Part shown: one piece after another, positions 16,947 through 23,324 of the stretch
Layout of the letters: each line of letters opens with the position of its first letter
Position numbering within the stretch: the first letter of the stretch is position 1
Assembly: GCA_947631865.1 (NCBI GenBank)
Contig: CANRNF010000013.1
Span: 1 to 49,926, forward strand
Origin: an uncultured Oscillospiraceae bacterium
GTDB lineage: Bacteria; Bacillota; Clostridia; Oscillospirales; Oscillospiraceae
Direction: 5' to 3'
DNA: 49,926 nt
Notes under the pieces: generated by a model
What the model saw: only the letters and a program-made list of their open reading frames with translations
Told to the model about the DNA's origin: nothing
The model's database searches: none
Translations under genes and position numbers: made by a program

Positions 16947-16980
16947 TGCCGCAGGCAAATGCCTGCGGCATTCTTTTTTT
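16947..16980 (+). terminator. Terminator after cysS
   Basis: A 10-bp perfect stem (TGCCGCAGGC / GCCTGCGGCA), loop AAAT, followed by TTCTTTTTTTATTT: a textbook intrinsic terminator. Confidence 0.93.
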
Positions 16981-16989
16981 ATTTACATG

Positions 16990-17018
16990 TTGACATTTTG
17001 AAATATTTGTGTTAAGTT
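16990..17018 (+). promoter_or_regulatory. Promoter of the pseudokinase-lectin gene
   Basis: Perfect -35 TTGACA (16990-16995), 17-bp spacer, -10 TAAGTT (17013-17018). This makes the next gene an independent unit just after the cysS terminator. Confidence 0.7.
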
Positions 17019-17071: not shown

Positions 17072-19483
17072 ATGACGGATACGGAAATGAATCCGGCGGC
17101 CTCCCTGGCGGGCTATCTCTGCCAGACCACGCCGGAGCAGGCGGTAAAGGCGGCCATGGAGCTGTGCGAGCAGCTGCCGGGGGACCCGGAGGGGTTCCAC
17201 GGCGGCGTCTGGCCGGGGAACGTGACCTTGGACGGGGACGGCAAGGCTGTCCTCGGTATGCCCATGTCCACTCCCGCGGCCCAGCGGCCCGCCAACCAGG
17301 TGGAATACCTGGCCCCGGAGTTCTTCTGGGATGGGTCTACCTCCGCTGCCGCGGATGTGTTTTCCGTCGGTCTCATGATATACGCCGGGTGCAGCAAGGG
17401 CTTCCTGCCCTTCCAGCCCGCGAAAGACGACTTGTCCAACCAGGAGCGGGCCTCCGCCCTTCGCAGGCGGATGAAGGGTGAGGCCATCCCAGCCCCCGAG
17501 GGCGTCAGCGAGGACCTGAAGAAGGTCCTGGAAAAGGCCCTGGCCTACAAGCCGGAGGACCGGTATATCACCGCCAAGGAGATGCTCTTCGCCCTGCACT
17601 GGACGGACGAGGCCCTGGGTCCCGACAAGGACAAGGACGCCGCGGCAGCGGCGGCCATACCGGAAGCGGAGGCTGCCGAGCCTGTCCCTGAGGCTCCTGC
17701 GGAGGCCCCCGTTACGCCGGAGGCGCCCCCCGAGCCCGAGGAGACGACCGAGGAGATGCTCCGGGAGGCGGACGCCGTCCTGGCGGCAGCAGCAGCCGCT
17801 GCGGCGGTAGCTGCAGGCGGCGCGGCCGTGGCCGCCGGTGAGGCGGAGAAAGCCGCCGAAGGCGCCGGGGGCGGCGAGGCGCCCGCCGGCAATGCCGAGG
17901 ACGGTCAGCCTGAGGACAGCAAGACCTCCGCCGAAGAGGCTTCCCCTGCCCAGACAGAGGGCGGCCAGGACTTCGTGAAAGAGGCTCCCTCGGACGGCGC
18001 GGACGGAAAGGCCGCGGCTGCGGCAGCCGCAGTCGGCACAGCCGGCGCCGCGGCGGCAGCAGCTGGAGCCGCGGCAAAAAAGGAATATAAGGTCCGCAAG
18101 GACTTTGAGAAGTCCCCCGACCGGAAGGCCCCCACCGTGGCCCCGGCCAAGAAGAAAAAATCCAAGGCGGTACCCATCCTGTGCGGCATCGCGGCAGCGG
18201 TACTGCTGGGCAGCGTGGGCTACATGGTCTACGGCAGCAGGACTCCTGGCCACACCGAGCCCTCGCCCCTGTTCACCCCGGACAGCGCCGAGGATGCGTC
18301 CATGGAAACGTCCCCCACCCCCCTGGTTATCACCCCCGAGCCAACCGGTACGGCCAAGCCCACCGACGAGCCTGAGACGGCCCCCGACGGCACGGCCGAA
18401 CCCGGCGCGACGCCTGGCGAGGATGGCATCGTCCCCGGTGACGACAGCGTCATCATCGTCACCCCCGCCCCCGGCACCATCGGCGGCGCGGTCACTGCGG
18501 GCGCCCTGGCCGGTGAGGCCGGCAGCGGCGAGCAGACCGGCGGCAATACCGGTGGGACGCCCGGCGGCGCTGGGTCCAGCGGAAGCGCAGGGACGACCCC
18601 CGGCGGCAGCGCGGGCACAGGCTCCGGTACAAGCTCCGGCGCGGGCACAGGCTCCGGGAACACCAGCACGGGCTCTGGCGCAGGCACCAGTGGTACAGGG
18701 TCCGGCGGCAGCACGTCCTGGGGCGGCGGCACTGGCTCCGGCGGCGGTACATCCTGGGGCGGCAACACCGGCTCCGGCGGCGGTACATCCTGGGGTGGCA
18801 ACACCGGCTCCGGCGGCGGCTCCACCACGACCCCTGCGCCCTCCTACACGGTCTCCCCCGCGGACGACACGGTGTACATCACCGGCGTGGGCGTGAACGT
18901 CCGCTCCGGCCCGGGCACCAGCTATCCCATCATCGGCTCCGCCAACACCGGCTATGAGCTGAAGCGCACCGGCACCTCCGGCGACTGGAGCCGGGTGACC
19001 TTCAAGGGCACCACAGGCTTCGTGTCCAACACATACCTGTCCACCACGAACCCCACTCCCTCTGCCACCGCGCAGCCCCAGCAGACGGCGCAGCCCGCGC
19101 CCCGGTACACCGTCACCGGCGGCGACCTGACCTACACCGACGCCAAGACCCAGGCCCAGAGCCAGGGCGGCCTCACCGTCATCCGCTCCGACGACGACTT
19201 TGAAGCCGTGGCACGGCAGCTGGATAACGGCGGCAGCGGCGTGGAATACGCCTGGCTGGGCGTGGAGTACGACAGCGCCTTCGACTGCTGGCGCTGGTCC
19301 GACGGTTCGGTCCTCTACACCGGCGACAGCCATTGGGCGGCCGGTAACCCCAAGGCCGGCGACGATTTAGTTCTGCTGGCCAGACAGGACGGCTCCTGGA
19401 AGTTTGTCAGCTTGTCCTCCTCCACTTTCGACCCCGCCGACAGCGCCTATGCCGGAAAGCTGGGCTACGTCACGGGCTCGTAA
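17072..19483 (+). CDS. Membrane pseudokinase with SH3b and lectin-like domains
   Basis: An 803-aa protein. Residues about 20-185 resemble the C-lobe of a Hanks-type kinase: H43-G-G-V-W-P-G-N50 stands where HRDxxPxN is expected, GMP (62-64) stands for DFG, APE is kept (81-83), followed by DVFSVGLMIY and a final helix with KPEDRY. The N-lobe and ATP lysine are absent, so no kinase activity is expected. An Ala/Glu/Pro-rich stretch (about 190-350) leads to KKKK and one membrane segment (about 366-388). Outside lie a Gly/Ser/Thr linker with TSWGGN repeats (about 470-590), a bacterial SH3 domain (about 600-655, VNVRSGPGTSYP) and a C-type-lectin-like domain (about 683-800, YAWLGVEY and WRWSDGS) without the usual cysteines. 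A wall-sensing scaffold is inferred. Confidence 0.85.
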   Translation: MTDTEMNPAASLAGYLCQTTPEQAVKAAMELCEQLPGDPEGFHGGVWPGNVTLDGDGKAVLGMPMSTPAAQRPANQVEYLAPEFFWDGSTSAAADVFSVGLMIYAGCSKGFLPFQPAKDDLSNQERASALRRRMKGEAIPAPEGVSEDLKKVLEKALAYKPEDRYITAKEMLFALHWTDEALGPDKDKDAAAAAAIPEAEAAEPVPEAPAEAPVTPEAPPEPEETTEEMLREADAVLAAAAAAAAVAAGGAAVAAGEAEKAAEGAGGGEAPAGNAEDGQPEDSKTSAEEASPAQTEGGQDFVKEAPSDGADGKAAAAAAAVGTAGAAAAAAGAAAKKEYKVRKDFEKSPDRKAPTVAPAKKKKSKAVPILCGIAAAVLLGSVGYMVYGSRTPGHTEPSPLFTPDSAEDASMETSPTPLVITPEPTGTAKPTDEPETAPDGTAEPGATPGEDGIVPGDDSVIIVTPAPGTIGGAVTAGALAGEAGSGEQTGGNTGGTPGGAGSSGSAGTTPGGSAGTGSGTSSGAGTGSGNTSTGSGAGTSGTGSGGSTSWGGGTGSGGGTSWGGNTGSGGGTSWGGNTGSGGGSTTTPAPSYTVSPADDTVYITGVGVNVRSGPGTSYPIIGSANTGYELKRTGTSGDWSRVTFKGTTGFVSNTYLSTTNPTPSATAQPQQTAQPAPRYTVTGGDLTYTDAKTQAQSQGGLTVIRSDDDFEAVARQLDNGGSGVEYAWLGVEYDSAFDCWRWSDGSVLYTGDSHWAAGNPKAGDDLVLLARQDGSWKFVSLSSSTFDPADSAYAGKLGYVTGS

Positions 19484-19498
19484 GAGCACACAAGCTCA

Positions 19499-19532
19499 GA
19501 GCGCACTGCTTTTCGCAGTGCGCTCCTTTTTT
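19499..19532. terminator. Bidirectional terminator
   Basis: An 11-bp perfect stem (GAGCGCACTGC / GCAGTGCGCTC), loop TTTTC, with a T-run on the plus side; it separates the pseudokinase gene from the convergent GH13 gene. Confidence 0.92.
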
Positions 19533-21264: not shown

Positions 21265-22848
21265 TCAACCCCGATAGTCGTCTGGGTCGTCGTCAGACGG
21301 AGCGGGATCCTCATCAAAATCCAGCCCCTCATCGGACTCGTACCGCCTGCCGCCGCCGGAATGGCGGCCATTGTAAGCGCCGCCGTCGGCCTCGTCCCCA
21401 TAGTCCTCCTCCGGCTCGTCATAGCGGTCACGGGGCTCGTCGAAGTACCCGGCGGGCTCGTCGTCCTCCCGGGGCACCTCCAGCCATTGGGCCTCCTGCC
21501 GGGCCCTGGATACCGCCCGCTCCTTGCGGGCGCGGCGCAGGGTGTGCAGATGGTGCAGCCGCTGGATAAAGTAGATGAGCATCAGCAGCAGATAGATGCC
21601 GAAGATGATGACCAGGATGGACACGATCTGGCGCACGGCCGGGGCCTGGACCATGCTCTTGAGCTGGGTGCGCAGGTAGTCCACCCGGGATATATCCGAG
21701 GTGGTGGCCGCCACCAGGCGGGAGGAGCCGTGGTCCGTCCCGTCCACGTAGACCGTCACGGTGCCCAGGTATGTCCCGGCGCTGATGGGCGCCTCCAGGG
21801 TCGTGCCCGACTGCTCATGGTTGTATTGGATGGCGTATTCCACCTGGCCCAGCTCCTGGTCGTTGGGCAGGAGCAGGGAGATGGTGTTCTCCGCCCGGAC
21901 GCCCAGAGTGGCGGGCGAGCCCATCTCCACCTCCACGGTGTCCAGGGTGTCGTAGGGGTTCAGGATCTCCCGGTAGCTGTAGTTATTGAAGGCCCAGTCG
22001 AACAGGTTGATGGCGTCCCGGAACTGGTCGCCGTTCTGGGCGCCCAATATCACGGCCACCACGTTCACGCTGTTATAGTCCGCCGCGGCCACCAGGCAGC
22101 TGCCCAGGGCGGCGGAATAGCCGGTCTTCAGACCGTAGGCGTTCTCATAGTAGAACTCGCTGCTGGGGTCCAGCAGGTAGTTGGCGTTGGTCACGGTGCG
22201 GCTGCCGGCCACCTCCGTGGCGCCGATGGTATAGCTGGCGGCCCGGCTCACGTCCAGCACGGCGGGCTTCGTCACCAGCTGGCGGCAGATGAGGGCCAGG
22301 TCGTGGGCCGTGGTCTGGTGGACCTGGCCGTCGGCCACGGGCTGGCCGTTGGTGTTGGCAAAGTGGGTGTTGGTGCAGCCCAGCTCCTGGGCCCGGCGGT
22401 TCATGGACTCCACGAAGGCGTCGATGGACCCGCCAACCCGCTCGGCCAGGATGTTGCAGGCGTCCGCCGCGGACTTCAGAAGGGAGCAGTACAGAAGCTC
22501 GATCACGGACAGGTGCTCGCCGGGCACGATGGCCGGGTCCGCGGTGATGCTGTCCGCGTTCAGGTTATAGCGGAAGTTCTCCGAGGCGGTGACCTCCTCA
22601 GACAGGGTCAGGGTGTTGGCGTCGATGGCCTCGGCCGCCAGCAGCGCCGTCATGAGCATGGTGAGGCCGCCGGGGAACATGGCCATGTCCCCGTTCTTCT
22701 GGTACAGGATGTCGCCGGTGTCCGCGTCGATGAGCACGACGGACTGCGCGTTCGTCGTGGGCTCGTCCAGGGCCAGGGCGTGGACGGGCAGCATCAGCAC
22801 GAACAGCGATATAGCGAGCAGGAGGGACAAAAGCCTATATTTTTTCAT
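21265..22848 (-). CDS. DacA-like penicillin-binding protein, active site lost
   Basis: A 527-aa protein with a signal sequence (1-27) and the fold of low-molecular-weight D,D-carboxypeptidases (S11). The nucleophile motif SxxK reads G61-L-T-M64 in the otherwise conserved FPGGLTMLMTALL. SxN reads S126-A-A128. Only KTG (241-243, GLKTGYS) is intact. Both key changes are one base away from canonical codons. D-Ala removal and penicillin acylation are therefore unlikely. A PBP5_C-like domain follows, then a membrane segment (about 425-447) and an acidic, Asp/Glu/Pro-rich cytoplasmic tail. GGAGAATGAC precedes ATG 22848. A structural or muropeptide-binding role is inferred. Confidence 0.88.
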   Translation of the reverse strand: MKKYRLLSLLLAISLFVLMLPVHALALDEPTTNAQSVVLIDADTGDILYQKNGDMAMFPGGLTMLMTALLAAEAIDANTLTLSEEVTASENFRYNLNADSITADPAIVPGEHLSVIELLYCSLLKSAADACNILAERVGGSIDAFVESMNRRAQELGCTNTHFANTNGQPVADGQVHQTTAHDLALICRQLVTKPAVLDVSRAASYTIGATEVAGSRTVTNANYLLDPSSEFYYENAYGLKTGYSAALGSCLVAAADYNSVNVVAVILGAQNGDQFRDAINLFDWAFNNYSYREILNPYDTLDTVEVEMGSPATLGVRAENTISLLLPNDQELGQVEYAIQYNHEQSGTTLEAPISAGTYLGTVTVYVDGTDHGSSRLVAATTSDISRVDYLRTQLKSMVQAPAVRQIVSILVIIFGIYLLLMLIYFIQRLHHLHTLRRARKERAVSRARQEAQWLEVPREDDEPAGYFDEPRDRYDEPEEDYGDEADGGAYNGRHSGGGRRYESDEGLDFDEDPAPSDDDPDDYRG

Positions 22849-22967
22849 GTCATTCTCCGGTAAAGTGTGGTATGATATATCTACAGCGGACGAATGCCGT
22901 TCCCACCTATTATAAGAAATAATCATTGGAAAAGCAACCTTGATTTTTATTAAATATCGTTGTATAT

Positions 22968-23324
22968 ATGCAAAAGTCATCCCCTAAAAACAAGGCCGGG
23001 CGGCCCTGGGCGCTTTGGGCCCTGACGGCGGCGCTGCTGGCGGGCGTTCTGGGCTGGTACGCCCTGGACGGCCGGGCCCATGAAGTGTGCTCGGAGCCCC
23101 TGGACACCGCGTCCATCGCCGGGGCCGGGCCCCTGGATATCAACACCGCCACCGCCGACGAGCTGGACGGTCTGCCCGGTATCGGCCCCGCCCTGGCCCA
23201 GCGCATCATCGACCGGCGGGAGACCGCCGGCCCCTTCCGGGGTGAGGAGGATCTGCTGGCCGTGGAGGGCATCGGCCCGGCCACCTATGAGGACCTGGCA
23301 CCCTACATCGGCTTTTCATCCTGA
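22968..23324 (+). CDS. ComEA-like helix-hairpin-helix protein
   Basis: A 118-aa membrane-anchored protein: basic N-terminus, one membrane segment (about 14-32), short linker, then tandem helix-hairpin-helix motifs (DINTATADELDGLPGIGPALAQRII and FRGEEDLLAVEGIGP). This is the DNA-binding part of ComEA, the surface receptor in natural transformation, but the usual SLBB domain is missing, and no comEC lies nearby. ATG 22968 has no ribosome binding site and sits inside AT-rich promoter-like sequence, so a leaderless or very short-leader message is possible. It is followed by an M24 peptidase 24 bp on. Confidence 0.82.
   Translation: MQKSSPKNKAGRPWALWALTAALLAGVLGWYALDGRAHEVCSEPLDTASIAGAGPLDINTATADELDGLPGIGPALAQRIIDRRETAGPFRGEEDLLAVEGIGPATYEDLAPYIGFSS

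Follow-up and report, generated by a model that had tools for sequence, protein, structure and literature searches.

A gene on the forward strand of an Oscillospiraceae contig (positions 17072..19483 of the window, by which we mean the whole stretch of 49,926 nucleotides analyzed) encodes an 803-residue membrane pseudokinase that, as delineated by open reading frame, Pfam, and genome comparison, has the C-lobe of a protein kinase, no N-lobe, and an ectodomain of SH3b and C-type-lectin-like domains. It belongs to a family of which we saw no description in the papers searched, and its C-lobe-only build is conserved in many genera of the bacterial family. Because this build recurs in so many related bacteria, the gene appears to be intact and to encode a functioning receptor with a dead kinase. 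We favor, with some reserve, a role as a noncatalytic single-pass receptor or scaffold, in which the C-lobe together with the linker would dock a cytoplasmic partner.

The forward reading frame carries the coding signature of the locus, with a GC3 of 0.84, and a 773-residue antisense reading frame is the mirror of that signature. An earlier note on this DNA had given the reading frame, coordinates, and domains correctly, and had also credited the gene with a promoter and terminator of its own. The terminator stands: the terminator scan places predicted intrinsic terminators on the forward strand to either side, one separating cysS from the pseudokinase gene (16947..16970) and one on its downstream side (19499..19525). 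The promoter is a candidate found by eye (TTGACA, 17 nt, TAAGTT; 16990..17018, forward strand), and the scanner gave no forward-strand promoter for the gene.

The kinase-derived portion spans residues 8–182 (17093..17617, forward strand), as defined by Pfam, phmmer, and the family alignment. The Pfam Pkinase model, scoring 34.1 bits against a cut-off of 31.7, pairs residues 72–171 with profile positions 156–257 of 263—the C-lobe alone—and phmmer aligns residues 20–172 to residues 114–273 of Mycobacterium tuberculosis PknB. A profile of the family likewise finds PknB as its top match among solved chains (3e-16), with 281 distinct chain sequences at E<=1e-5, of which the best 60 were examined. 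Both the Pkinase and PknB alignments are confined to the C-lobe and an N-lobe profile is silent, in keeping with the earlier proposal of a C-lobe that lacks an N-lobe and ATP-binding lysine. Within this lobe, alignment bears out that the HRD catalytic aspartate has become Gly45; the lysine of HRDxK is Trp47, and Asn50 and the APE glutamate (Glu83) are retained. The DFG position had been read as GMP, which requires correction: alignment to six active relatives puts Met63-Pro64-Met65 there, and Gly62 corresponds to the glycine that precedes DFG in active relatives (LGDFG). Two AlphaFold models returned pLDDT values of 39.2 and 36.8, each from an alignment of four similar rows (the window's protein and L030–L032), and the model at 39.2 displays, at low confidence, a C-lobe-like order of helices and strands. 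Because both models are of low confidence, assignment of the kinase fold rests on profile homology.

Loss of the catalytic parts extends throughout the family. A profile of the N-lobe, built from 20 active kinases, matched none of the 65 members, the window's included, but all 19 held-out active kinases, controls selected for having over 125 residues N-terminal to the C-lobe. By alignment, DFG is present in 0/65 members and both catalytic aspartates in 0/65; likewise, none of the 64 members besides the window's shows both HRD and DFG patterns. In the family-profile alignment (n = 65), the catalytic aspartate column is occupied by Gly in 50 members, Asn in 6, Ala in 4, Cys in 3, and Asp and Thr in 1 each, and the HRDxK lysine column by Trp in 40, Arg in 14, His in 5, Tyr in 4, and Asn in 2. 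The DFG aspartate column has Pro in 21, Ala in 10, Glu in 9, Lys in 6, Asp in 5, Gly in 4, Met in 3, Arg in 3, Ser in 2, and Leu and Asn in 1 each, and none of the five members with aspartate here has the HRD aspartate. The asparagine column holds Asn in 62, Ser in 2, and Ala in 1, and the APE glutamate is present in all 65, the invariant residues falling mostly in the region from APE to alpha-I. The lone HRD aspartate among the 65 is found in a protein of the same genus (L058, genome G018; FHGDIWPGN), which has asparagine at the DFG column and no N-lobe.

Sixty relatives were searched, 34 of them of the window's genus, and 32 of those 34 have an orthologue (29 complete, three ended by contig ends); the gene was not found in two same-genus genomes, G003 and G012, which are 90 and 93% complete. 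All 32 orthologues start with the same C-lobe, and both SH3_3 and Pkinase were detected in each of the 30 genus proteins scanned (the window's and 29 others). In a sample of 400 genomes of the family, 81 match the C-lobe profile at E<=1e-20 and 74 score at least 95 bits, 8 of these belonging to the genus (the window's own included) and 66 to others. From those 66 genomes we took 32 proteins of 16 genera, as best-scoring loci and hand-picked additions rather than a random draw, and every one is C-lobe-only, such that the build holds in 64/64 members besides the window's. Wider sampling yields few further cases: at E<=1e-12, a sample of 295 genomes of the order contributed three members besides the window's, with other matches at no more than 89.5 bits, and at E<=1e-20 a sample of 398 genomes of the phylum returned the window's genome and two others, the two encoding full kinases. 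With the family profile, members score 185–232 bits and other retrieved kinases at most 120. Among the open PMC papers listed by our searches, we saw no description of a C-lobe-only pseudokinase with a lectin-like or SH3b ectodomain; in PMC12599244, "C-lobe" and "lectin" occur zero times as word starts.

A tree of 88 C-lobes, rooted at its midpoint only, contains a 100/100 branch with 44 C-lobe-only rows (12 from the genus, 32 from others) on one side and, on the other, 41 active kinases plus three further rows. Two kinase-like proteins outside the pseudokinase family also show altered motifs. L086 (G289, another family) is degenerate, reading HGDIRPEH where HRD is expected and GGF where DFG is expected; residues before its C-lobe resemble an N-lobe remnant, and its ectodomain is VanW-like by eye. 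With the midpoint root, it is basal among the rows on the active side. L098 (G214) has HNNIQLEN and GNP at these positions and a very long branch. In L109, HRD and VADFG are both present.

The C-lobe is under purifying selection. Comparison of the window's gene with three close orthologues, two of which are near each other, gave dN/dS values of 0.06–0.08 for the C-lobe, 0.05–0.15 for SH3b, 0.05–0.19 for the juxtamembrane and transmembrane region, 0.11–0.28 for the lectin-like domain, and 0.18–0.43 for the linker, where low complexity renders the alignment unsure. The C-lobe value lies below those of the linker and lectin-like domain in all three comparisons and is the lowest of all in two; in one, SH3b and the juxtamembrane/transmembrane region fall under it.

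The remainder of the protein is likewise encoded on the forward strand. Hydropathy and dN/dS delimit an Ala/Glu/Pro-rich, low-complexity, fast-evolving cytoplasmic linker (17618..18079), which is followed by a juxtamembrane motif identified by pattern search, Y-x-V-x-K-x-F-E (YKVRKDFE; 18086..18108), and by a single transmembrane helix at residues 369–387, preceded by KKKKSK (18176..18232). That the protein crosses the membrane, as proposed earlier, is thus supported by hydropathy; an Ala-rich stretch at residues 235–253 also exceeds the threshold, and several orthologues have none there. The positive-inside rule suggests an N-in, C-out topology. The motif, written Y-x-V-x-K-x-F-[ED], occurs in 44/64 members and 0/42 active kinases, and LSxxExMMxxI in 10/64 and 0/42, counts that are descriptive because both patterns were picked after reading the sequences. 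The former is absent from 20 of the 64, including L038, a relative of the window's protein, and its degenerate DNA pattern has a single match in the window's genome (87% complete). A by-eye search of the linker saw no phosphosites common to the family.

On the predicted outer side, a long Gly/Ser/Thr-rich spacer is accompanied by an SH3b domain (SH3_3, residues 607–657; 18890..19042; Pfam 3.5e-15) and a C-type-lectin-like domain without Ca-site-like residues (residues 685–801; 19124..19474), the latter recognized by Pfam and by a profile from other genera. Pfam Lectin_C (residues 691–779) scores 18.5 bits in the whole protein, under its 22.6 cut-off, and 23.1 bits on the domain alone, above it; the profile built from other genera scores 38.2 bits. 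Both C-terminal domains of the earlier annotation are upheld by these matches, and the lectin-like domain, then called cysteine-free, has one cysteine, Cys739. Across the genus, Lectin_C is detected at E 0.01 in 10/30 proteins, and the profile from other genera matches 26/33, the window's included. Three of the other seven are cut short, and L057, L059, L060, and L061 have no real match: in the first three, which form part of a deep genus subclade, the lectin-like domain is absent with further SH3b-like repeats in its place, and L061 has unknown residues in this region. Among 19 complete proteins of other genera, Lectin_C is found in all 19 and the Pfam kinase model in 17 at E 0.01; SH3_3 was not reported in any of the 19 by the Pfam scan, and SH3b is therefore seen in the window's genus only.

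The two groups also part at the residues EPx and W..ND, which we take to mark where C-type lectins bind Ca and sugar. Both are present together in 19/19 proteins of other genera versus 0/26 of the window's genus, where EPx occurs in two and W..ND in none. On the simplest reading, also as regards direction, the window's genus would have lost the Ca/sugar site and gained SH3b. Since it lacks the predicted ligand residues, the lectin-like domain of this genus may be structural only. In CwlA of C. difficile, SH3_3 domains are reported to help the protein bind peptidoglycan (PMC8262956). The earlier notion that the receptor serves wall glycans is accordingly divided: plausible through SH3b, and weakened for the lectin-like domain of the genus, which lacks residues resembling a Ca/sugar site.

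Several other explanations merit consideration. A fragmented assembly, in 150 contigs and 87% complete, invites the suspicion of a local deletion, an assembly error, or a decaying pseudogene, but the same build recurs in 32/34 genomes of the genus and in 16 other genera, and the C-lobe dN/dS of 0.06–0.08 is not that of a decaying sequence. As no member has an N-lobe or intact HRD and DFG, the build reflects neither local deletion nor assembly error, and we give this account, ruled out by independent genomes, practically no weight. A composite kinase, to which another protein supplies the N-lobe in trans, has a parallel of sorts in the split HipA pair proposed in Legionella, according to the accessible portion of PMC9758233. 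Against it, none of the four kinase matches in the window's genome is N-lobe-only, at the completeness given above, and the catalytic aspartate is gone in 64/65 members, with aspartate at the DFG column in 5/65 and never alongside that of HRD. With no DFG and the two aspartates never both present, a completed composite fold should still be dead; we rejected this highly improbable arrangement for want of an N-lobe-only match and because the catalytic residues are lost.

Two further readings accept a dead C-lobe and differ over its purpose. The C-lobe could act as a decoy or inhibitor that binds active Hanks kinases (for instance at the substrate/alpha-G face), or their substrates, and limits signaling with no receptor output. 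The concentration of invariant residues between APE and alpha-I is what such a role would favor, as is the presence of three N-lobe-bearing kinases in the same genome, but a protein with this juxtamembrane motif and so large an ectodomain would seem to do more than act as a decoy, and we regard this reading as doubtful. It is a smaller prospect that the protein is an envelope anchor or adhesin and the C-lobe merely a stable cytoplasmic plug. An SH3b and lectin-like ectodomain on a long spacer would suit an anchor, and constraint on SH3b is about that on the C-lobe; yet constraint on the C-lobe exceeds that on the lectin-like domain in 3/3 comparisons and that on SH3b in 2/3, a pattern not expected of a mere plug.

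We return, then, to the noncatalytic receptor or scaffold put forward in the earlier note, for which the absence of an N-lobe from all 65 members tested, the missing DFG, the never-paired aspartates, and purifying selection all speak. Outside the cell, SH3b and the degenerate lectin-like domain would hold or sense the envelope; inside, the C-lobe, presumably incapable of ATP binding or phosphate transfer, would offer a protein-docking surface, with the short juxtamembrane motif and long flexible linker assisting. The docked target would most likely be a cytoplasmic partner belonging to the Hanks-kinase/cell-wall-synthesis circuit, which the receptor may position or regulate. Who that partner might be is a matter for speculation, with candidates including a PASTA kinase and, as would-be readers of a phosphorylated linker, FHA-FtsW/RodA fusions.

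Candidates of both types are encoded in the window's genome. Three of its four kinase matches have an N-lobe, and the active Hanks kinase envisaged in the earlier note has a likely counterpart in an active-looking PASTA kinase. PASTA matches lie on contigs C5 and C34, other than the window's; on C34, L074 is a PBP-like reading frame (by eye) with two C-terminal PASTA domains. A second N-lobe kinase has leucine-rich repeats, judged by eye, and a third adjoins an FHA gene. The genome also has two paralogous fusions of FHA with FtsW/RodA (SEDS), L078 on C63 and L079 on C31, both parts being detected by Pfam in L079, and in L078 FHA being detected and the SEDS part recognized by eye. Such a fusion builds phospho-threonine reading onto a wall polymerase. 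Among genomes already retrieved, FHA-SEDS fusions occur in 39/39 pseudokinase-positive versus 24/38 negative genomes, the latter having nothing above 115.1 bits for the family profile (Fisher p 1.2e-5, in a test that treats related genomes as independent and is hence confounded by relatedness). Requiring the FHA part in the match gives, under the same proviso, 38/39 (G384 excepted) versus 23/38 (G346 dropping out), p 4.9e-5. There is a precedent in the pairing of the MviN pseudokinase with FhaA, as related in the available parts of PMC12599244 and PMC11898655. The FHA-FtsW/RodA fusions may thus be a lead for the partner, the association fitting MviN-FhaA logic rather than demonstrating it.

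Gene neighborhoods offer less guidance. At 20 loci of other genera, no neighbor gene is common to more than four, and without a widely shared neighbor the partner probably acts in trans. By tblastn, the 32 genus loci, often broken by contig ends, have cysS at 17, a cysE-like gene at 12, amylase at 11, and dacF at 3, and the 20 loci of other genera have the cysE-like gene at 2 and cysS, amylase, and dacF at 0; gene setting is therefore partly common within the genus, not beyond. Synteny by clustering of reading frames was muddied by antisense ORFs in GC-rich DNA. In the window, dacF, a D-alanyl-D-alanine carboxypeptidase gene (21265–22980), is the second gene downstream, on the opposite strand. 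Some subclades have, by eye, aspartokinase- and homoserine-dehydrogenase-like genes upstream.

The usual picture of a pseudokinase is a fold of two lobes in which the motifs are damaged. A C-lobe-only family that is conserved provides a natural test of what the C-lobe does without nucleotide: the retained residues must serve docking or folding. The family points to lectin-type receptors of gut bacteria, and its cytoplasmic domain and motif could be used as bait for partners. It is conceivable, though we would wager little on it, that these proteins form a one-lobe receptor class, in which a half-kinase, devoid of ATP site and catalysis yet maintained by strong selection, is the cytoplasmic output of lectin-type receptors that link glycans of the envelope or host to FHA-linked wall synthases in gut Oscillospiraceae.

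Among known systems, Mycobacterium tuberculosis MviN is an ActPs3 pseudokinase with a carbohydrate-binding domain and a part in cell-wall control; in the available parts of PMC12599244, it resembles the window's protein as a membrane pseudokinase with degraded catalytic motifs and a carbohydrate-binding domain, but differs in that it is a flippase for lipid II and that features of an ATP pocket and an N-lobe are described for its pseudokinase. In ActPs3 the phosphorylated tail is bound by an FHA protein, and the window's genome has FHA-SEDS proteins. The window's protein, in contrast to MviN, has no N-lobe and no flippase domain, its Pfam matches including no MurJ-type family and its membrane helices numbering one, and its ectodomain is lectin-like plus SH3b. 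Pfam includes a YukC model, and the EssB/YukC family is not among the Pfam matches of the protein; nor do the five flanking genes belong to a T7SS. EssB/YukC is comparable as a transmembrane pseudokinase of Firmicutes with a scaffolding role, but, as described in PMC12599244, it retains a glycine-rich loop in degraded form and belongs to type VII secretion.

The PASTA kinases (PknB/PrkC) share the general plan of cytoplasmic kinase-fold domain, transmembrane helix, and wall-facing ectodomain, and among solved structures the top relative of the window's C-lobe is PknB. They are, however, active and bilobal with PASTA domains outside, whereas the window's protein lacks catalytic residues, has SH3b and lectin-like domains outside, and contains no PASTA domain by Pfam. 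The nearest intact relatives by sequence are Oscillospirales membrane kinases with variable ectodomains (for example L065–L072). In the same-genus genomes G013 and G018, such active-looking membrane kinases (L066–L069 and L072) are often in tandem, with ectodomains that by eye are diverse: RCC1-like, SH3b-like, and solute-binding-like. Kinases of this type have in common with the pseudokinase family an RR-x-x-GE stretch after alpha-F, but retain the N-lobe, HRD, and DFG, 42 of them being classed as active by motif.
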